From: Holophagaceae bacterium
GTDB lineage: Bacteria; Acidobacteriota; Holophagae; Holophagales; Holophagaceae
Assembly (NCBI GenBank): GCA_025358435.1
Contig: JANYJQ010000145.1
Coordinates: 1-34,475 of the forward strand
DNA: 34,475 nt
Reading direction: 5' to 3'
Of this stretch, positions 8,096-16,441 are shown piece after piece; position 1 is the first letter of the stretch, and each line of letters starts with the position of its first letter. Under the pieces are notes generated by a model that ran no database searches, had not been told where the DNA came from, and was given only the letters and a program-made list of their open reading frames with translations. The translations under genes and the position numbers were made by a program.

Positions 8096-9403
8096 GTGCC
8101 ACAGAAACGCTACCTCATAGCCACGCTTTTTATCGCCGGCATGCTTTTGCTGGTCGCGGTGGTGCAGGCTTTCAAACCTCCGCGCGAAGGCGGGGTGGCT
8201 CCGGATGCAGCAGTGCTCAGCTTGAATCTGGAAAGTTTTGAGACCATCGCAGACCTCCGCCTGGAGGATGGCTGGGCTCCGCGTTTCACGTCTGCCCAGG
8301 ACCCGGATCAATGGGAATCATGGCCCTCAGGGGGTGGCTTCGGGACAGCGTGGGAACCCGCCTCCCCATACATGTTCGATCATGCCCTGGCGCTCAACGG
8401 ACCTGGAGGGCGTAGCGAAGTGGCCTTGTGGCACGGCTTGGAATGGCGCCACTTCCGTTTTGACGCGCCCATGGCATCAGCGCGCATGGACCCAGGTAGG
8501 CATAACCGGTTGCTGGTGACGCTCAATCTTGGCCGCGGGCGTTTCCAGACCAAACTATTGGAGGTGCCTGAAGGTCGAGTGCTCTGGGCTGTGAACAGCG
8601 GTCCATGGAGCCGCTTCAGTTGGGATGGAAAGTCGGTGCTGATGGGTCTGGCTGACCCCACCCAGGCCTCCCGGCTTCTGCTCACCGCCCTGCCAGTGGA
8701 AGGAGACTGGCCCGACTCAAGCTTGGCGCCCTGGAATGAAGAAGGCTTGCCTGGCGCTCCACGGGGGTTCCCGGTGCGCCTTGAACAACTCTGGGACGAC
8801 GGCAAAGATCTGCCAGGTCCGAAACTGCTCATCCCCTGGCGCCCAGGCAGCCAGTTTTGGATGCCCCAGCGGGACCGTCTTTGGGTTTCTTCTGAAGGGG
8901 TATGGACCTTCTGGAGGTTGAGGGAAGGCATTTGGCAGCGGGAGGCCAGCGGGTCGGGGGTTTTGTCGGCTCAGCCTCCTTGGAGAATGGGGCTTGTGGC
9001 TGATTCCCAAGATGGAGCTCTGCGGTCCCGCAGTGAAATTGGTACCGCGGAATGGGAGCCTGTTCCGGCGGACCTGCCTCCCTGGCCGGCATACGATGCC
9101 GCCTGGTTATGGCGCAAAGATGCGTCCCAGGGAGCCCTGACCGCTTGGGATCTGCGCTGGCATGAAGGCGAATCTCCACTTCCGAGGGAACGGCAGCGGA
9201 GTTCCTTGATGGGTGCCTACCGGGCTGAATGGCGGGCCGCTTCGAATTTACGGGCCTCGGTTCGGGGCTGGCTCCCCAGCGGACCCCAAATCGCGCTACG
9301 AGAACTGAACGGCGTGGCCTGGGTCTGGGTCGGGGACCGTGTTTTGATCGTGCGCTTGGTGAGCACTGAGCGCTTGCGCAAGCTGAAAGGGGCTGCCGAA
9401 TGA
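8096..9403 (+). CDS. Trp-rich membrane-anchored hypothetical protein
   Basis: Not recognised. The 435-residue product begins with a short basic N-terminus and one hydrophobic segment (about 6-26, YLIATLFIAGMLLLVAVVQAF), so it is likely anchored in the inner membrane with the rest outside. The large domain is unusually rich in Trp and Gly/Pro, with repeated short strands ending in Trp (WAVNSGPWSRFSWDGKSVLMG; FWMPQRDRLWVSSEGVWTFWRL), a pattern suggesting a beta-propeller or beta-sandwich; this is inference. The GTG start at 8096 is uncertain because no Shine-Dalgarno is visible and the gene is divergent from CYTH with 18 bp between; ATG 8138-8140 is an alternative that would shorten the anchor. 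Confidence 0.7.
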   Translation: MPQKRYLIATLFIAGMLLLVAVVQAFKPPREGGVAPDAAVLSLNLESFETIADLRLEDGWAPRFTSAQDPDQWESWPSGGGFGTAWEPASPYMFDHALALNGPGGRSEVALWHGLEWRHFRFDAPMASARMDPGRHNRLLVTLNLGRGRFQTKLLEVPEGRVLWAVNSGPWSRFSWDGKSVLMGLADPTQASRLLLTALPVEGDWPDSSLAPWNEEGLPGAPRGFPVRLEQLWDDGKDLPGPKLLIPWRPGSQFWMPQRDRLWVSSEGVWTFWRLREGIWQREASGSGVLSAQPPWRMGLVADSQDGALRSRSEIGTAEWEPVPADLPPWPAYDAAWLWRKDASQGALTAWDLRWHEGESPLPRERQRSSLMGAYRAEWRAASNLRASVRGWLPSGPQIALRELNGVAWVWVGDRVLIVRLVSTERLRKLKGAAE

Positions 9404-9492: not shown

Positions 9493-11103
9493 ATGCCCCG
9501 CCTTCTCCTTGTGGACGACAACCCCAGTATTCACAAGATCGCGGAAACGCTTCTCGGCTCGAGTTCCATCGAGTTGTTTTGCGTAGGTTCCGCCAGTGAA
9601 GCAATGATGATGCTTGATTCCGGCGAACGGTTCGACGTGGCATTGCTGGACACTGCGATGCCTGGCATGGATGGCTGGGAATTGCTTGCACGAATGCGCA
9701 AGCACCCCGATTCCGCATTCATTCCCATTGCGATGATGGCGGGGGTGCTGGATACGGTGGATCCGGAAAAACTGAAGAACGCCCCAATTCAAGGTTTCAT
9801 CAAAAAACCCATTGAGTTGCGTGAATTGGCAGAACGGGTTCAGCAACTTCTTGCCACCCCTGTGACCATCGCGGAAAACGAGGGGAGTTCAGAGGGACCC
9901 ACAGTTCTTTCGCCTTTCGCTACGGTGCCAGGAACAAAATTCAAGAGTCTGCCAGAGTTCAGGGGCGTGGTTGACGGTCCTCCGCCGGAAGAAATCCAGC
10001 CGAGGGCAACCTCATATTTTGAAGAATCGCCTGAAACAGTTCAGACAGATGGTCAGGATGATGTTCTTCTTCTGACGCCAGAGGATTTCTGGTTCGAAGA
10101 TGCTCAGATCGAAACTGATTCTCCTGATTTCCTTTTAGCCCAGGCCACGGCCCAGGCCATGGCAAAGGCCGAGCATGAGGCTCCGTTGCAATTGACGGCC
10201 CATGTGGACGCGACCCTGGACCTGGAGGAATTGGATCTGGAAGCTCTCAAAGATCTGCCGAATGACGAGCCTCCGACTCTGCCTGACGTTCCGGTTGTCC
10301 CGGAAACCCCCTATGGGCAACGGCCAGAGGACCTCCCCGAACAGCCTTTCGGTGAGGCGGTCGAAAGGTATCCTGACCACTCTGAACCTGTTCTGGCCAT
10401 GGAAGCATCCGCGATTACCGGTGGGTTGCATGAAGACGAGACTCTTGCCATTCCGGGTCTCGCGATTCGAGCTCAAACCCTTGCCGCTCGGGAATCAAAT
10501 GCGGCTGACTTCCCCACGCATGAATTCCTCACCGAAGCCATTCCTACCCATGAATTGTCAGACCTTGGTGAAGTGCCGGATTTCGAAGATTTCACCCCAG
10601 AGATTTCGCACGCCGAAGGCCCAGTGCCCCCGTTGGCCGAAGGCCCAGTGCCCACCTTGGCCGAAGGCCCAGTGCCCACCTTGGCTGAAGGCCCAGTGCC
10701 CACCTTGGCTGAAGGCCCAGTGCCAACCTTGTTCGAGGAAACCGAGGGGCATGCTGAACCCAATGACCATCCAGCATTCCCGTCCGCTGCCGCTTTTGCC
10801 TTGCCAGTCGCGGCGGTGGCTTTGCCGGCGGCCTTGGCATTGCATGCTGCCGGAGAGTCAACCGAATCCCCAATACCTTCAACTCCAATTGCCCCGATTG
10901 CCAGCTCTCTGTTAAATCCCCCCGGTGTGGACTCAGAAAAAGAAGTCCCGCGCGATGCCGCTGCTCTCGTCCAAGTCCTTATGTCCGATCCAGTTCTGAT
11001 GGATGCCTTGGCCAAGGCGGTGGTGGCCAGACTGGGTGATCAGGCCCTTCGTGAGATAGCATGGGAGTTGATGCCGGAATTGGCTGAGAAATTGCCACGA
11101 TAG
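9493..11103 (+). CDS. Response regulator with long acidic/Pro-rich linker, octapeptide repeats and conserved C-terminal helix
   Basis: A 536-residue protein. Residues 1-122 form a receiver domain: Asp8/Asp9, phospho-acceptor Asp53 (LLDTAMPGMDG) and Lys105 (FIKKP); the usual Thr/Ser switch residue is replaced by Ala83 in MMAG. A long low-complexity acidic and proline-rich region follows, with five copies of AEGPVPTL at 374-413 encoded by a perfect 24-bp tandem repeat, then an Ala-rich segment that looks hydrophobic (AAAFALPVAAVALPAALALHAAG). The C-terminus carries a conserved helix (GDQALREIAWELMPELAEKL) seen in receiver proteins of Deltaproteobacteria and Acidobacteriota. There is no DNA-binding domain. 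GAGGGA precedes ATG 9493 by 5 bases. Output mode unknown; it may work through protein contacts. Confidence 0.85.
   Translation: MPRLLLVDDNPSIHKIAETLLGSSSIELFCVGSASEAMMMLDSGERFDVALLDTAMPGMDGWELLARMRKHPDSAFIPIAMMAGVLDTVDPEKLKNAPIQGFIKKPIELRELAERVQQLLATPVTIAENEGSSEGPTVLSPFATVPGTKFKSLPEFRGVVDGPPPEEIQPRATSYFEESPETVQTDGQDDVLLLTPEDFWFEDAQIETDSPDFLLAQATAQAMAKAEHEAPLQLTAHVDATLDLEELDLEALKDLPNDEPPTLPDVPVVPETPYGQRPEDLPEQPFGEAVERYPDHSEPVLAMEASAITGGLHEDETLAIPGLAIRAQTLAARESNAADFPTHEFLTEAIPTHELSDLGEVPDFEDFTPEISHAEGPVPPLAEGPVPTLAEGPVPTLAEGPVPTLAEGPVPTLFEETEGHAEPNDHPAFPSAAAFALPVAAVALPAALALHAAGESTESPIPSTPIAPIASSLLNPPGVDSEKEVPRDAAALVQVLMSDPVLMDALAKAVVARLGDQALREIAWELMPELAEKLPR
10612..10731 (+). repeat. 24-bp tandem repeat, five copies (AEGPVPTL coding)
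   Basis: Five head-to-tail 24-bp units at 10612, 10636, 10660, 10684 and 10708 encode AEGPVP(P/T)L. Units 2 and 3 are identical; units 4 and 5 differ mainly by GCC to GCT at the first codon and one late change. Near-identity at synonymous sites points to recent expansion by slippage or unequal crossover, and copy number may vary between strains. Confidence 0.95.
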
Positions 11104-11181
11104 TTGAATCATCGGCAATGACCATCCAAACATCCGGAGCCGATTCCGGTCTCACATCAATTTGCGCATAGGCCCATCTGA

Positions 11182-11823
11182 ATGATCACTGGCTACAACA
11201 CCGACGTCCGGCATGGCAATCGGATTTACCACGTCCAGACCGAGGATAAGGGGTTCTCCAATCCGAAGATCGAAACGCTGATCTATGTGGGCGGCGAAAT
11301 TCTGGACAGCTACAGGTCATCCTATGAAGATCTGCTGGCAAATCCCCCGGTGTCCGATGCTGCCATCCAGATCCGGATGGATGAGCAACATAAGGCCATC
11401 ATCCGAGACATCAAGAATGGCAAATACGACAGCACACCGCCTGATATGCAGGAGCAGCAGGTATTCAACGAGCGCAGTCTGGATCAGGCCATCCTGGAAT
11501 TCCTGCAGCAAGAGGGCGAAGTGGACACCCTGGAATTGGTGCTCGAAAAACCATTGGCGCCGGTCTTCGGCAAGCTTTTCAGCGTTCAAATGCGCGCCCG
11601 CCTGACGAACAGCCAGAATCCTGTACGCGGTGCCGATGTAGCTATCCGATTGATTTCAAGCTTAAAAAAGGCCGCACCGCTGCTCAACGGCAAGACTGAT
11701 GAAGAGGGCGTCTTCCATGGCCAAGTGGAACTTCCCCCCAGCCAGCCTGGCCATTGCGCAGTCGTGGTGAGTTGTGCTTCGGAATTCGGGAATGATGAAT
11801 TGAAGGCCCTGGTCGCTTCCTGA
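11182..11823 (+). CDS. Conserved hypothetical protein, partner of response regulator
   Basis: A 213-residue soluble protein with the N-terminal signature ITGYNTDVRHGNRIYHVQTEDKGFSNPKIETLIYVGGEILDSYRSSY, which I recognise as a conserved uncharacterised family in Acidobacteriota and some Deltaproteobacteria. The middle part (MDEQHKAIIRDIKNGKYD) is helical and charged. The C-terminal part (VFGKLFSVQMRARLTNSQNPVRGADVAIRLISS ... EEGVFHGQVELPPSQPGHCAVVVSCASEFGNDELKALV) has the strand pattern of an immunoglobulin-like or carboxypeptidase-regulatory domain; that assignment is inference. No signal peptide. It lies 78 bp after the response regulator in the same direction and is followed by a terminator, so the two probably form one transcript. 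Confidence 0.8.
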   Translation: MITGYNTDVRHGNRIYHVQTEDKGFSNPKIETLIYVGGEILDSYRSSYEDLLANPPVSDAAIQIRMDEQHKAIIRDIKNGKYDSTPPDMQEQQVFNERSLDQAILEFLQQEGEVDTLELVLEKPLAPVFGKLFSVQMRARLTNSQNPVRGADVAIRLISSLKKAAPLLNGKTDEEGVFHGQVELPPSQPGHCAVVVSCASEFGNDELKALVAS

Positions 11824-11843
11824 GCTGCCTTTGGACGTCTGAG

Positions 11844-11871
11844 TAGCTGCCGCGGTGGGGCAGCTATTTTT
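11844..11871 (+). terminator. Rho-independent terminator of response-regulator operon
   Basis: An 8-bp perfect stem TAGCTGCC / GGCAGCTA (11844-11851 and 11859-11866) with a 7-base loop is followed by TTTTT at 11867-11871. It begins 20 bases after the stop of the partner gene and directly precedes the AT-rich promoter region of the CarH-like gene. Confidence 0.85.
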
Positions 11872-11925
11872 GTATAAATAATATTTTAGATTATTTTTGT
11901 CTATAATATAATATAGACATAATTG
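11872..11925 (+). promoter_or_regulatory. AT-rich promoter and palindromic operator of carH-like gene
   Basis: This stretch is almost entirely A/T, in contrast with the GC-rich surroundings. It contains an inverted repeat GTCTATA-N6-TATAGAC at 11899-11918, extendable to 11-bp arms with one mismatch. Two TATAAT boxes (11902-11907 and 11907-11912) lie inside the palindrome, so a bound dimer would occlude the -10 region; no good -35 is seen. GAGGAG at 11928-11933 lies 6 bases before the ATG. The arrangement fits autorepression by the downstream MerR-type protein, as described for CarA/CarH/LitR regulators; the target protein is inference. Confidence 0.65.
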
Positions 11926-11939
11926 ACGAGGAGACACCG

Positions 11940-12797
11940 ATGGGCACAGATTCCGGGTTGCTCAGTATCGGAGATATCTGTTCCGAGACGGGCTTATCGC
12001 CGGATGTGGTCCGTGTGTGGGAACGTCGATACGGTTTTCCGCGGCCTGTTCGCTTGCCATCGGGTCATCGCCGTTATCGCCCCAGCGATCTCAACCGACT
12101 GCGGCTGATCGCCGAGGCCGTGGCCGATGGCCATCGCCCCGCGCTGGCTGTCAAAGCTGATGAAGCTTCCCTGCGCAAACTCCTGGTCCGCGGCCAATCC
12201 CCTACATGGGCTCCAATCGTTGATCCGCTGATCAAGGCCGTGCTGGAAATGGAAAGTGCGCAAATCCGTGCTTTGCTCCAGAATGCCTTCACCCATTACG
12301 CTTTGAAAGATTTTCTAGGGCATGTGGTCGATCCCCTTTTGGAGTGGATAGGTTTCGCCTGGGCCGAGGGTTCTCTGGGCATCCACCAGGAGCATCTGGT
12401 CACCGAAATTCTGGAAGATTTTTTACGCGAGGTGCGCCTGGCTCTGCCAGCAAAACCAGGCAGAGGATCGGTGTTGTTGACCACGTTACCAGGAGAGCGA
12501 CACCGTTTAGGTCTCTTGATGGCGGCTCTGCTTTATGCGGCCAAAGGCGTGAGAGTGGAATTGCTTGGCGTCGATCTCCCCGTGGCGAGCATCGCGAACG
12601 CCGCACTCACTTTACGTGTGGACACAGTGGCTGTGAGCCTCTCCATCCAAAGTTCGGGCGAACCCACACGGCGATTGCTCTTGGATCTGCTGGAACGCCT
12701 GCCCCCCAGGTGCCGATTGCTGATCGGCGGCCAGGGAGCGGCCAGAACCCGCAAAATGGAGGGTGTGGAACGAATGGCCGGAATTTCCGAAATCTGA
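11940..12797 (+). CDS. carH: CarH/LitR-like B12-binding MerR regulator (candidate photoreceptor)
   Basis: A 285-residue regulator with three parts: MerR winged helix (1-75: SIGDICSETGLSPDVVRVWERRYGF), a four-helix B12-cap (about 90-170) and a cobalamin-binding Rossmann domain (175-285). It carries the CarH light-sensing signature W-x9-EH exactly (Trp141, Glu151, His152) and the lower-ligand motif E-x-H-x-x-G with His188. In characterised CarH proteins adenosylcobalamin drives tetramer formation and DNA binding in the dark, and light breaks the Co-C bond and releases DNA. The symbol reflects these motifs; the targets are not known. A strong Shine-Dalgarno and an AT-rich palindromic promoter precede it; the GDT1-like gene starts 23 bp downstream. 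No carotenoid gene is in the window. Confidence 0.88.
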   Translation: MGTDSGLLSIGDICSETGLSPDVVRVWERRYGFPRPVRLPSGHRRYRPSDLNRLRLIAEAVADGHRPALAVKADEASLRKLLVRGQSPTWAPIVDPLIKAVLEMESAQIRALLQNAFTHYALKDFLGHVVDPLLEWIGFAWAEGSLGIHQEHLVTEILEDFLREVRLALPAKPGRGSVLLTTLPGERHRLGLLMAALLYAAKGVRVELLGVDLPVASIANAALTLRVDTVAVSLSIQSSGEPTRRLLLDLLERLPPRCRLLIGGQGAARTRKMEGVERMAGISEI

Positions 12798-12820
12798 TGA
12801 AAAATGGAGTAGGGGGTGCT

Positions 12821-13090
12821 ATGACCCGATCACTGTTCTGGTCGACTTTTGCGACGGTTTTCCTGGCGGAGTTGGGCGATAAAACCCAGCTTGCCGCCAT
12901 GACTGCGACTGCCAGGAGCGGCGCGGTGATCACGGTGTTCCTGGCCGCAAGCGCCGCCCTGATTGTCGCTACGGCTATAGGGGTCTCTGTCGGTGAAGCC
13001 CTGTTTCGCGTTGTGCCCGAACACCTGATCCGCTACATCGCCGGTGGGGCCTTCATCGCCGTAGGAATGTGGGTCCTGGTGAAGGGGTGA
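12821..13090 (+). CDS. Half-size GDT1/UPF0016 (TMEM165) family cation transporter
   Basis: An 89-residue membrane protein with the family signature E-L-G-D-K-T (residues 17-22, FLAELGDKTQLAAM) and three predicted transmembrane segments (about 5-25, 35-57, 66-88). Full-length family members have two such halves; a single half should work as a homo- or heterodimer. Family members are linked to Mn2+ (and Ca2+) export or secretion. ATG 12821 has AGGGGG/GGAG just upstream; the longer in-frame form from 12344 is a shadow over the carH-like gene. It follows that gene by 23 bp and its TGA overlaps the GTG start of the DCC protein, so the three are probably cotranscribed. Confidence 0.85.
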   Translation: MTRSLFWSTFATVFLAELGDKTQLAAMTATARSGAVITVFLAASAALIVATAIGVSVGEALFRVVPEHLIRYIAGGAFIAVGMWVLVKG

Positions 13091-13497
13091 ATGAGAAGGA
13101 TGAACTTTTCTACGACGGAGGCTGTGGTCTCTGCCATGGGGCTGTCCGCTTCATTCTCAACTGCGGAGAGAAAGGCGAAGCCTTCCACTTTGCGCCCTTG
13201 GGTGGCTCAACCTATCACCAAAAGTTGACATCCGAAGATCTTGCGGGAATGCCTGACAGCCTGGTGATTCTCACGGTTTCGGGTGAAGTCCTATCGCGTT
13301 CCATGGCCGTATTCCACGTTCTTGATACTCTGGGCGGTGGATGGCGTCTGCTTGGAAGGATTGGACAAATCCTGCCACGGTCCCTCACAGATGCACTCTA
13401 CGGCTGTATCGCCAGCATTCGGCACCGGCTGACGGTGATTCCCGTAGATGTCTGTCCGGGTGCCAGCGAAGAGCAGCGAGAAGGATTTGACGACTAA
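13087..13497 (+). CDS. DCC-family (DUF393) thiol-disulfide oxidoreductase-like protein
   Basis: A 136-residue protein of the DUF393/DCC family, named for its DxxCxxC motif: here YDGGCGLCHGAV with Cys13 and Cys16, followed by VRFILNCGEKGEAFHFAPL and the conserved SRSMAVFHVLDTLGG...RLLGRI block. The fold is thioredoxin-like by family knowledge; real oxidoreductase activity is unproven. GTG 13087 overlaps the stop of the upstream gene (GTGA), pointing to translational coupling; GTG 13069 is a longer alternative. Its end overlaps the last 4 bases of the convergent rsmE gene. Confidence 0.85.
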   Translation: MNEKDELFYDGGCGLCHGAVRFILNCGEKGEAFHFAPLGGSTYHQKLTSEDLAGMPDSLVILTVSGEVLSRSMAVFHVLDTLGGGWRLLGRIGQILPRSLTDALYGCIASIRHRLTVIPVDVCPGASEEQREGFDD

Positions 13498-14210
13498 CTA
13501 TTCAGCTGGAACTGGATTGCACCCATCACAGCGATGGGGGCCGTAGCTGCGCGGAGGATGCTGCGCCCCAGACAAACGGGTTGCCAACCGGAATCTCTTA
13601 ACGCAACAAATTCTGCATCTGAAATTCCACCCTCAGGGCCACATGTGAATGCTAGGGCCTCCATGCTCAACGCGGGGTTCACCACGTTTGCGGTGGCTTC
13701 ATATGCGACCCAACGTTGGGGGATCCGCCAGTCCAACAGCGAAGTGAACTGCTGGGCGGGGAGCAATTCGGGAATGTGGCTCCGATGGCTTTGTTCAACC
13801 GCGGAGGCGATGATCCGGGACCAACGCGGAACTTTCGCAAGCGTTCTACGGGAATCGAATTCGCTTCGCGCGTAGATGATGGGATGGAAGTGTGTCACGC
13901 CCAATTCCACGAGAGGGGGAAGCCAATCCTCCCAGGTGGCCAGGTGGGATGTGATGGGCAGGCAGGCGTGCAGGGGGATGGGCGATTCCCTTAGCTCAAG
14001 CAAGGGCGATATGAGTCGCACATGGGCTACCTCAAGGGTGATTCCCGTAAGGTCAGCTTGCCAAGGGCCGCCGTCTAAAAGCAGCTCCAGAGCTGCGCCG
14101 GCCTTCAATCTCAAAGCATGCAGATGCCGTGCCTGTTCAGGGCTCAGGGCTATCATGCGCCCCTCAAAATAGGGACCCGGCGAGGGGACGATCAACCTTG
14201 GCAAGCTCAT
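13494..14210 (-). CDS. rsmE: 16S rRNA (uracil-1498-N3)-methyltransferase, RsmE
   Basis: A 238-residue SPOUT-family enzyme that methylates U1498 of 16S rRNA with SAM. Seen: N-terminal PUA-like part (ALSPEQARHLHALRLKAGAALELLLDG), the ELGVTHFHPIIYARS strand, AVEQSHRSHIPEL (usual A-x-EQS-R), the knot motif CGPEGGISDAEF and LGRSILRAATAPIAVMGA. The family usually reads LRxETA here; Ala replaces Glu, a substitution to note, but all other motifs are intact. It is a single gene convergent with the DCC-protein gene; the upstream end faces the MITE-like element. Confidence 0.9.
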   Translation of the reverse strand: MSLPRLIVPSPGPYFEGRMIALSPEQARHLHALRLKAGAALELLLDGGPWQADLTGITLEVAHVRLISPLLELRESPIPLHACLPITSHLATWEDWLPPLVELGVTHFHPIIYARSEFDSRRTLAKVPRWSRIIASAVEQSHRSHIPELLPAQQFTSLLDWRIPQRWVAYEATANVVNPALSMEALAFTCGPEGGISDAEFVALRDSGWQPVCLGRSILRAATAPIAVMGAIQFQLNS

Positions 14211-14237
14211 ACCCCATTCTCACGGCCTGTAGACTTA

Positions 14238-14548
14238 AGAGTGTGTCTTAAAATTCCCCGGCGCCGCGCTGGGAGCGCCGGGCGAGCGGTGCAGATATCA
14301 GTTTGTCTTGCCTATCGGCGGAGCCGATACCAAGAAGGCAGCCGACCAAGGCATATCGATCATACGCCACGGAAGGCTAACGCGGCCCCGCGAAGCCCGC
14401 CGCCCCAGCCCGAAGGGACGGGGCCAGCCGCGCACACCGCGGCGTCACGGGCCTTGTGCGTATGATCTATACGCCGCTGCGGCCCTTTCCTTGCGTTGCA
14501 TCGCGCCTGACCTCCGTCGCGGAACGGGAGAATTTTAAGACACACTCT
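14238..14548. mobile_element. MITE-like element, 311 bp, with 19-bp terminal inverted repeats
   Basis: The ends AGAGTGTGTCTTAAAATTC (14238-14256) and its exact reverse complement (14530-14548) form perfect 19-bp terminal inverted repeats. They are flanked by TTA on both sides (14235-14237 and 14549-14551), consistent with a 3-bp target duplication. Inside are nested pairs: 14354-14367 with 14458-14471 (13 of 14 paired, core GATCATACGC) and a hairpin TATCGGC-GGA-GCCGATA (14313-14329). There is no credible transposase frame, so it looks non-autonomous. It fills nearly all of the 351-bp gap between rsmE and terC and ends 2 bases before the terC ribosome site. Confidence 0.75.
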
Positions 14549-14561
14549 TTAGGGAGGCTTC

Positions 14562-15503
14562 TTGATCCAAATTTTATTGAGCGCGGCGCCTTGGTGGGCT
14601 TGGCTAGGGTTCCATGTTTTCGTATTCGCGATGCTGGCGCTGGATCTGGGAGTGTTCAACCGGAAGGTACACGCGCCCAGCGTCCTGGAAGCCGCCGTGT
14701 GGAGCGCCACATGGATCACTCTGGCTCTGGTTTTCAATATCCTGATATTCAAGACGCAAGGGCCGCAGCATGGCCTGGAATGGCTCACGGCCTACCTGCT
14801 GGAAAAGTCCCTCAGTGTGGACAATCTCTTCGTCTTCGTTCTCCTCTTCGCCAGTTTCCGTGTGGAACTGAGGCATCAGCACAAGGTGCTTTTCTGGGGT
14901 GTGCTTGGCGCTCTGGTGATGCGAGCGGGCATGATCCTGGCGGGAACGGCGCTGTTGATCAAGTTCGCATGGATGGTCTATGTCTTTGGCGGTTTCCTGG
15001 TGTTTACCGGGATGAAGATGCTGCTCTTCGAAAAGGCCGAGCGGGATCCTTCCCTGCACCCGGCGGTGCGGTTGTTCAAGAGGTTGATTCCCTTTGATGA
15101 CAAAGGCGGGTTTGAACATTTCTTCACTTTCAGCAATGGCCACCGCTATGCCACGCCCATGCTACTGGTGCTCTTGAGCGTTGAGATCACCGACGTTATT
15201 TTCGCCGTGGATTCCATCCCCGCGGTCTTGGCCGTCACGCGCGATCCATTCGTTGTCTATACCTCCAACATTTTTGCCATCCTTGGGCTCCGGAGCCTTT
15301 ATTTCCTTCTGGCGAAGATGATGGACCGGTTCCACCGGCTCGAAATGGGCCTCGCCGTGATCCTGGTGTTTGTGGGCGTCAAGATGTGCATAGCGGAGTG
15401 GTTGAAAATTCCCACCGTGGTTTCACTTCTGGTCATCATCACGGTGTTGATCGCAAGTGTGGCGATAAGCCTGGCTTGGCCCGCGATATCGGAGGAGGAG
15501 TGA
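14562..15503 (+). CDS. TerC-family integral membrane protein
   Basis: A 313-residue TerC/Alx family protein with about eight or nine transmembrane segments. Signature parts: FAMLALDLGVFNRK in the first helix pair, EKSLSVDNLFVFVLLFASF, the LFWGVLGALVMRAGMI stretch, and LSVEITDVIFAVDSIPAVLAVTRDPFVVYTSNIFAILGLRSLYFLL, the most conserved TerC block with its membrane acidic residues. Family members in other bacteria take part in Mn2+ export and in tellurite resistance. The start is TTG 14562: AGGGAGG at 14551-14557 sits 4 bases before it. The upstream region is now mostly the MITE-like element. The stop overlaps the ATG of ribF by one base (TGATG). Confidence 0.92.
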   Translation: MIQILLSAAPWWAWLGFHVFVFAMLALDLGVFNRKVHAPSVLEAAVWSATWITLALVFNILIFKTQGPQHGLEWLTAYLLEKSLSVDNLFVFVLLFASFRVELRHQHKVLFWGVLGALVMRAGMILAGTALLIKFAWMVYVFGGFLVFTGMKMLLFEKAERDPSLHPAVRLFKRLIPFDDKGGFEHFFTFSNGHRYATPMLLVLLSVEITDVIFAVDSIPAVLAVTRDPFVVYTSNIFAILGLRSLYFLLAKMMDRFHRLEMGLAVILVFVGVKMCIAEWLKIPTVVSLLVIITVLIASVAISLAWPAISEEE

Positions 15504-16441
15504 TGCAGGTGTGGCACCATAAGCTGGAAGCCGCGCCGGCGTCAGGCCCGTATGTCGTAACGCTCGGGAATTTCGATGGTGTCCATCGCGGCCATCGCGA
15601 GTTGCTCGAATTCGCCGCGTCGCGGGCGAGAGAACAAAAGCTGCCGTCCGCGGTGGTCACCTTCGATCCCCACCCCACAATTGTCGTGGCACCGGAACGC
15701 AAACCACTGCTGCTTATGACTCTGGCGCAGCGTCTCGCGGAGTTCGAAGCCGCAGGCATGGATTTGGCTTGGGTGATCCCCTTTTCCAGAGCCTTCTCGG
15801 AGTTGAGTCCTAGCGCCTTCCTTCACCAATTGAAGCGCACTCTTTCACCAGTGGAACTTCATGTGGGACGGGCCTTCGGGTTCGGGCGGAACCGAGCGGG
15901 GGATTTCCATACCCTGGAGACCTGGGGCAAGCAGGTTCATTGCGTGGTCTTTACGCACGCCCTCAAAGCGCCGGATGGCGGGCATCTATCCAGCACGCGC
16001 ATCCGCCATGCATTGGATGCCGGTGATGTGGACCATGCTGCGGAGCTTCTTGGGCATCCCTATGCCCTGACGGGTATTGTCGTGGAAGGCGAGCGGCGCG
16101 GGCGCCATCTGGGCTTTCCCACGGCGAACCTTCATTGGGAACAGGAACAGCTGCCGGGCCATGGCGTCTATGTGACTGAAGTGCACAGCCGATATTGGGA
16201 TGCACCCCGCCTGGGACTGACGAACATCGGCGAGAAACCAACCTTTTCAGGGCGGGCCTTATCGGTGGAAACGTTCCTACCCGGCTTCGAGGGGGATCTG
16301 TATGGTGCTTCATTGGAGCTGCGCTTCCTGCGCCGTATCCGCGGCGAGCGGCGGTTCGGGGACATCGAAGCTCTCCGTACCCAAATTGCCTCCGATGTGG
16401 CGGAAGGCCAGGCTTGGTGGGATAATCAAGGGTTACGTTGA
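15503..16441 (+). CDS. ribF: Bifunctional riboflavin kinase / FAD synthetase
   Basis: A 312-residue enzyme making FMN from riboflavin and FAD from FMN. The N-terminal adenylyltransferase domain shows VTLGNFDGVHRGHREL (nucleotide-binding), VTFDPHP and LSSTRIRHALDAGDVDHAAELLGHPY; the C-terminal kinase domain shows GRHLGFPTANL and GVYVTEVHS, then the family-typical LSVETFLPGFEGDLYG and LELRFLRRIRGERRF. Length matches RibF. ATG 15503 overlaps the terC stop and has a very strong GGAGGAGGAG site, so translation is coupled to terC; a longer in-frame start at 15386 lies inside terC and is rejected. Confidence 0.96.
   Translation: MQVWHHKLEAAPASGPYVVTLGNFDGVHRGHRELLEFAASRAREQKLPSAVVTFDPHPTIVVAPERKPLLLMTLAQRLAEFEAAGMDLAWVIPFSRAFSELSPSAFLHQLKRTLSPVELHVGRAFGFGRNRAGDFHTLETWGKQVHCVVFTHALKAPDGGHLSSTRIRHALDAGDVDHAAELLGHPYALTGIVVEGERRGRHLGFPTANLHWEQEQLPGHGVYVTEVHSRYWDAPRLGLTNIGEKPTFSGRALSVETFLPGFEGDLYGASLELRFLRRIRGERRFGDIEALRTQIASDVAEGQAWWDNQGLR

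Follow-up and report, generated by a model that had tools for sequence, protein, structure and literature searches.

The window, the whole stretch of 34,475 nucleotides of Holophagaceae DNA analysed here, comes from an assembly of 2.4 Mb that is 76% complete. In its middle part, a gene for a CarH-type regulator stands behind a palindromic promoter region and is followed by genes for a half-size GDT1 transporter and a DCC-family protein (Table 1).

Table 1. Features of the carH locus (positions in the window)
Feature	Position	Strand	Evidence and remarks
Terminator-like hairpin and T-run closing the upstream romY-like gene and parting it from carH	11844..11866	+	RNA fold -17.8 kcal/mol, z -3.5
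Degenerate operator copy TGTATA-N10-TAGATT	11871..11892		Three mismatches; lies 27 bp ahead of the perfect copy
Sigma-70-like promoter match TTTAGA-N16-TATAAT	11885..11912	+	Consensus match; number of such matches at chance level
Proposed CarH operator, palindrome TGTCTA-N10-TAGACA	11898..11919		Perfect 6-10-6 inverted repeat, TGTCTATAATATAATATAGACA
carH, MerR-type DNA-binding and cobalamin-binding domains	11940..12797	+	285 aa; profile searches, structure-database match
Half-size GDT1 (UPF0016) cation transporter	12821..13090	+	89 aa; one ELGDKT motif (residue 17); Pfam E 2e-20, whole model
DCC-family (DUF393) thiol-disulfide-like protein	13087..13497	+	DGGCGLC (DxxCxxC) motif; Pfam E 3e-15

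The carH product is a CarH-type MerR/cobalamin regulator with predicted B12 binding. It matched Pfam MerR_1 (E 3.5e-12), B12-binding_2 and B12-binding, all over the cut-off, and the closest solved structures were those of Thermus CarH (3whp and 5c8d; E about 2e-36, full-length alignment). Its match to the NCBIfam CarH model NF052513 (E 8e-45) reached 153 bits against an equivalog cut-off of 400 bits, so we call the protein CarH-type, that is, a relative and not an equivalog by the NF052513 rule. In CarH, the Wx9EH motif caps the adenosyl group of adenosylcobalamin (AdoCbl). This motif is whole here (W141-x9-E151-H152, WAEGSLGIHQEH at residues 141-152), and so is the cobalamin-ligand motif ExHxxG (E186-R-H188-R-L-G191, with His188 as the ligand). 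The full B12 motif reads ExHx2G-x41-SLS-x27-GG. Its consensus is D/ExHx2G/P-x41-SxT/V-x22-27-GG, so Ser stands at the third residue of SxT/V, and this SLS is common to most close relatives in the family alignment. The recognition helix RxWERRY is present as R25VWERRY. An earlier reading of this DNA from sequence alone (the sequence-only reading) had recognized a CarH-like MerR gene by Trp141, Glu151, His152 and His188; the Pfam domains, the match to Thermus CarH and the motifs agree with it.

Thermus thermophilus CarH (PDB 5C8D/5C8E/5C8F) resembles the window protein over the full length (E 2e-36) in its MerR and four-helix/Rossmann cobalamin domains, the Wx9EH motif, the lower ligand His and the RxWERRY helix. 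Arg187/Asp212 and Gly203 of the window protein align with Arg176/Asp201 and Gly192 of Thermus CarH, by numbering counted on the alignment. These Thermus residues have interface roles. Named relatives are Holophagaceae, among them the cultured Geothrix rubra, which carries a CarH-type gene (locus L128). In the CarH relatives of genus g9 (L037-L039, from genomes of about 1 Mb), EK replaces EH in Wx9EH. One Geothrix-group genome holds three CarH-like genes, and in one of these paralogues (L041, G032:C24) both the EH motif and the cobalamin-ligand His motif are gone; it is a CarA-like copy, possibly B12-independent.

The arms of the palindrome upstream of carH are complementary over 8 bp. When the 116-nt intergenic region was shuffled 5000 times with its dinucleotides preserved, the exact motif never appeared (0/5000), and 10 of the shuffles held some perfect 8+8 palindrome with a gap of 6 nt. 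It is the sole match with fewer than three mismatches in the whole window, and it overlaps the sigma-70-like promoter, which is the only such match found in 11000-15600. The palindrome that the sequence-only reading had placed ahead of carH is confirmed, and it is operator-like. Tandem palindrome copies like those of the window were also seen, by eye, at the carH promoters of two congeners (G002 and G004), and the carH promoters of genus g9 genomes hold two palindromes at a distance of 32 bp.

The operator repeat unit of CarH is an 11-bp nAnnTnnACAn with the core TnnACA (PMC8156234), and the operators of characterised CarH proteins are tandem direct repeats of 11 bp (PMC8156234, PMC9304148), three in the case of Thermus CarH. 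The proposed window operator is instead an inverted pair: each half of the palindrome holds the TnnACA core, and one half fits the full 11-bp unit. CarH/CarA of Myxococcus (PMC9304148, PMC8156234) likewise share the protein architecture and an operator that overlaps promoter elements, but their operators are tandem 11-bp direct repeats and control a carotenoid operon. The family is a natural case in which to test if inverted operators can serve CarH.

The palindrome recurs in the family. Perfect TGTCTA-N10-TAGACA was found at 18 places in 77 family genomes, compared with none for a reversed-pattern control. By reading of the listed site positions, 10 of these were assigned to carH, 3 to ribA, 3 to a TIGR01777 oxidoreductase gene and 2 to other places (16/18 at the first three). 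At carH promoters, the 22-bp palindrome was found in three species of the window's genus, in three of genus g9 and in several Geothrix-group genomes; many Geothrix carH and TIGR01777 promoters are without a good site. Genome scans allowing one mismatch gave counts close to those of the control, so lone weaker sites mean little without conservation. One such site lies just upstream of a gene for a PYP-like PAS (TIGR02373, 80 bits, below cut-off) and V4R/BchJ-like protein in G004:C46 (L063:7001-8136); it could be due to chance, and given the control-level counts we do not claim this gene as a target.

The product of ribA is GTP cyclohydrolase II, which catalyses the first step of riboflavin synthesis. 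A site with one mismatch begins 101 nt ahead of the ribA match start in the window's genome, and sites recur at a similar place across the Geothrix group. With up to three mismatches allowed, the ribA site was present in 19 of 29 CarH-positive rows of the genome comparison and in 2 of 24 CarH-negative rows (Fisher p 2e-5; the rows are related). Because of this relatedness by descent, contrasts were drawn on the tree; only six independent contrasts were well supported, of which about four agreed and none opposed (p 0.125). The tree-corrected test is suggestive, and the evidence that the ribA site tracks CarH presence is good, not conclusive. Of the CarH-positive rows, only G004, where a variant with 9-nt spacing is found, and a single nine-member Geothrix clade, in which several members carry multiple CarH copies, lack the site; conversely, the site occurs with no carH detected in G086 (94% complete) and G065 (64% complete). 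A limited literature search found no report linking CarH to ribA, an absence that proves little. In a Myxococcales MAG (L165:1442-2639), a CarH relative is followed by a ribA-like stretch, with a divergent fasciclin-like gene beside it; that stretch is divided over different frames, and we rejected this adjacency as anything but a lead.

At the TIGR01777 gene, a site lies just upstream of the start in the CarH-positive species of the window's genus (0, 2 and 3 mismatches), and none was found in the two CarH-negative species of that genus. In the Geothrix group, the site is strong only in a few species of one clade (Fisher p about 0.1). In G080, the TIGR01777 gene stands behind a perfect palindrome and is followed by a polyketide-cyclase-like gene. 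The conservation of the palindrome points to ribA and the TIGR01777 gene as wider CarH targets in the family. Photolyase was also considered and rejected: the gene is present in several CarH-positive genomes, and the upstream regions inspected showed no palindrome.

CarH is known chiefly for switching carotenoid genes. Phytoene/squalene synthase (PF00494) was found in none of 17 family genomes, single-contig and near-complete relatives among them, while the same search was positive in 7 of 14 control genomes. At 76%, the assembly of the window is incomplete, but near-complete relatives give the same result. Canonical carotenoid control by CarH is therefore unlikely, and we rejected carotenoid synthesis as its output in this family. 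Here the family departs from Thermus, and the suggestion of the sequence-only reading that this regulator has a different output holds in that respect. The class II LitR proteins PmlR2/PplR1 of Pseudomonas (PMC9758184) are also among the closest known systems. Their targets overlap in type with those predicted here: both sets include a short-chain dehydrogenase and a gene for a GTP cyclohydrolase (folE in Pseudomonas, ribA in this family). The Pseudomonas operator, T(G/A)TACA-N12-TGTA(C/T)A, is likewise built as an inverted repeat. However, the ACA ends of its half-sites point inward, not outward as here, and the spacing differs; moreover, PmlR2 senses light through a LOV partner, and photolyase is a target in Pseudomonas (PMC9758184).

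The products of the two genes that follow carH show the hallmarks of their families: the ExGD-K/R-S/T motif and HMM match for GDT1, and the DxxCxxC motif and HMM match for DCC. The GDT1 gene is the only one found in the window's assembly, which is 76% complete. Homodimers are the predicted working form of half-size GDT1 proteins (PMC7380456); GDT1 proteins carry Mn2+/Ca2+ against H+ (PMC7380456, PMC10148156). The gap between carH and the GDT1 gene is 23 nt and has no terminator-like site, and the DCC gene begins with GTG and overlaps the GDT1 stop by 4 nt. This operon-like spacing makes cotranscription of carH, GDT1 and DCC in the window likely, and carH was correctly described as leading the two genes. 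No metal riboswitch (yybP-ykoY) was found in the window at the Rfam gathering threshold.

From these observations, we consider it somewhat probable that an AdoCbl-binding CarH-type repressor acts on TGTCTA-N10-TAGACA at its own promoter, at ribA and at the TIGR01777 gene. CarH bound to AdoCbl would occupy the inverted repeat overlapping its own promoter and so regulate itself; it would also bind this palindrome ahead of a few further genes, ribA and the TIGR01777 NAD(P)-oxidoreductase gene. The AdoCbl-bound state would repress these genes, and repression would be lifted when AdoCbl is lost, whether through light or through lack of B12. In the window's genus, GDT1 and DCC would have joined the carH operon at its distal end, and CarH should then set their expression as well. 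Extra flavin in light would be a sensible response, given the light sensitivity of flavins and the FAD requirement of photolyases. We tentatively propose, without giving it even chances, that this family has turned a CarH-type regulator from carotenoids towards flavin supply and an oxidoreductase by means of a palindromic operator, with a metal-transporter/thiol-protein operon as a further target in one genus. The Ala in place of His132 would then mean either another light mechanism or a report of B12 status instead of light. A family seemingly without carotenoid synthesis that keeps CarH, its autoregulatory site and the ribA site would be a testable case of CarH control of flavin synthesis, possibly also of metal export.

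The GDT1-DCC part of this proposal depends on how the neighbourhood arose. The order carH-GDT1 was found in all three CarH-bearing species of the window's Holophagaceae genus (G000, G002 and G004), with DCC in two of them. The order is RomY-CarH-GDT1-DCC-RsmE-TerC in G004 and RomY-CarH-GDT1-RsmE-TerC, without DCC, in G002. Another congener, G001, has RomY-GDT1-DCC-RsmE-TerC with neither carH nor the palindrome found, and G003 yielded neither CarH nor GDT1; a gene missing from a draft genome is not a proven loss, and the window's own genome is 76% complete. In Geothrix-group genomes (g4), the gene corresponding to 8096-9403 (p8096), the response regulator, RomY and CarH are kept together and GDT1 lies elsewhere; in G016, GDT1-RsmE-RibF lies away from CarH. 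In the flanking DNA of the best 80 named CarH loci, GDT1 or DCC was found beside CarH only at L124, which is the G004 place, and at none of the other 79. The gene order proposed as conserved thus stands for carH-GDT1 in the three CarH-bearing congeners, and fails for DCC in G002 and for carH-GDT1 at the other CarH loci examined. Since the cassette is limited to the genus and is kept without CarH in G001, GDT1-DCC is a genus-level addition and not the ancestral CarH output. Two older gene blocks meet in the window's genus, so the carH-GDT1 neighbourhood is young.

It is a serious alternative, falling just short of an even chance, that this meeting is a positional accident. The blocks p8096-response regulator-RomY-CarH and GDT1-DCC-RsmE-TerC-RibF would then simply have been joined in the genus, with metal and thiol homeostasis under no meaningful control by light or B12. 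The separate blocks of the Geothrix group and G016, the CarH-free cassette of G001 and the loss of DCC in G002 all fit such an accident. The close packing of the genes (a gap of 23 nt, then 4 nt of overlap), the lack of a terminator between the genes and the order kept in 3/3 CarH-positive congeners argue against it. Moreover, if GDT1 and DCC are read from the carH promoter, they would be controlled by CarH whatever their origin.

The weakest link of the proposed mechanism is the light step, because of Ala142. This residue follows Trp141, at the matching place of His132 in Thermus CarH, and is close to invariant across the family alignment of CarH-type proteins. His132 is the cobalt ligand of the light state (PMC10442372). 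A light-state His after the Trp is frequent, not universal, in CarH; it is absent from the window protein, and light sensing is therefore uncertain. The protein may be an AdoCbl sensor reporting B12 status, or a light-insensitive regulator, instead of a working photoreceptor, which we regard as possible yet rather unlikely. In one study, Thermus CarH H132A stayed mostly tetrameric after light (PMC10442372), which fits this alternative, as do the EK of genus g9 and the Geothrix paralogue L041 that lacks both motifs. On the other hand, an earlier study, as cited in PMC10442372, saw full-length H132A dissociate in light. Also, the CarH-defining Wx9EH and His-ligand motifs are whole in the window protein, and the predicted targets (the TIGR01777 and GTP-cyclohydrolase genes) are like known LitR light regulons (PMC9758184). 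The Ala142 proteins provide a natural test of the need for the light-state His.

The sequence-only reading had suggested that, if the three genes are cotranscribed, a light and B12 signal may set metal or redox homeostasis. It is improbable that dedicated control of Mn2+ export and thiol redox by light and B12, exerted through carH-GDT1-DCC, is the main adaptive output: the operon-like layout, the transport of Mn2+/Ca2+ against H+ by GDT1 proteins (PMC7380456, PMC10148156) and a TerC/Alx metal-homeostasis gene two genes downstream speak for it, but the cassette is genus-limited, has lost DCC in one species and occurs without CarH in another, where TerC also stands beside GDT1-DCC-RsmE (G001). 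Least probable of all, we very much doubt that the palindrome belongs to another regulator and that CarH uses a different site, since it lies inside the carH promoter in three genera and its half-site fits the TnnACA core of CarH, despite an operator style unlike the direct repeats of CarH proteins characterised so far, and despite ribA sites in the CarH-negative G086 and G065, the latter just 64% complete.

Two further features of the neighbourhood were observed. Upstream of carH, at 9493-11823, a response regulator with a long repetitive linker adjoins the gene with the RomY N-terminal domain. The two resemble a RomR-RomY polarity pair, and together with the gene at 8096-9403 they are kept beside carH across the Geothrix group. 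Downstream, an element of about 310 bp with 35-nt terminal inverted repeats (86%) lies between the RsmE-like and TerC genes (14234-14552). The RsmE-TerC gap is only about 40 bp in G002 and G004, so this element looks like a recent MITE-type insertion.
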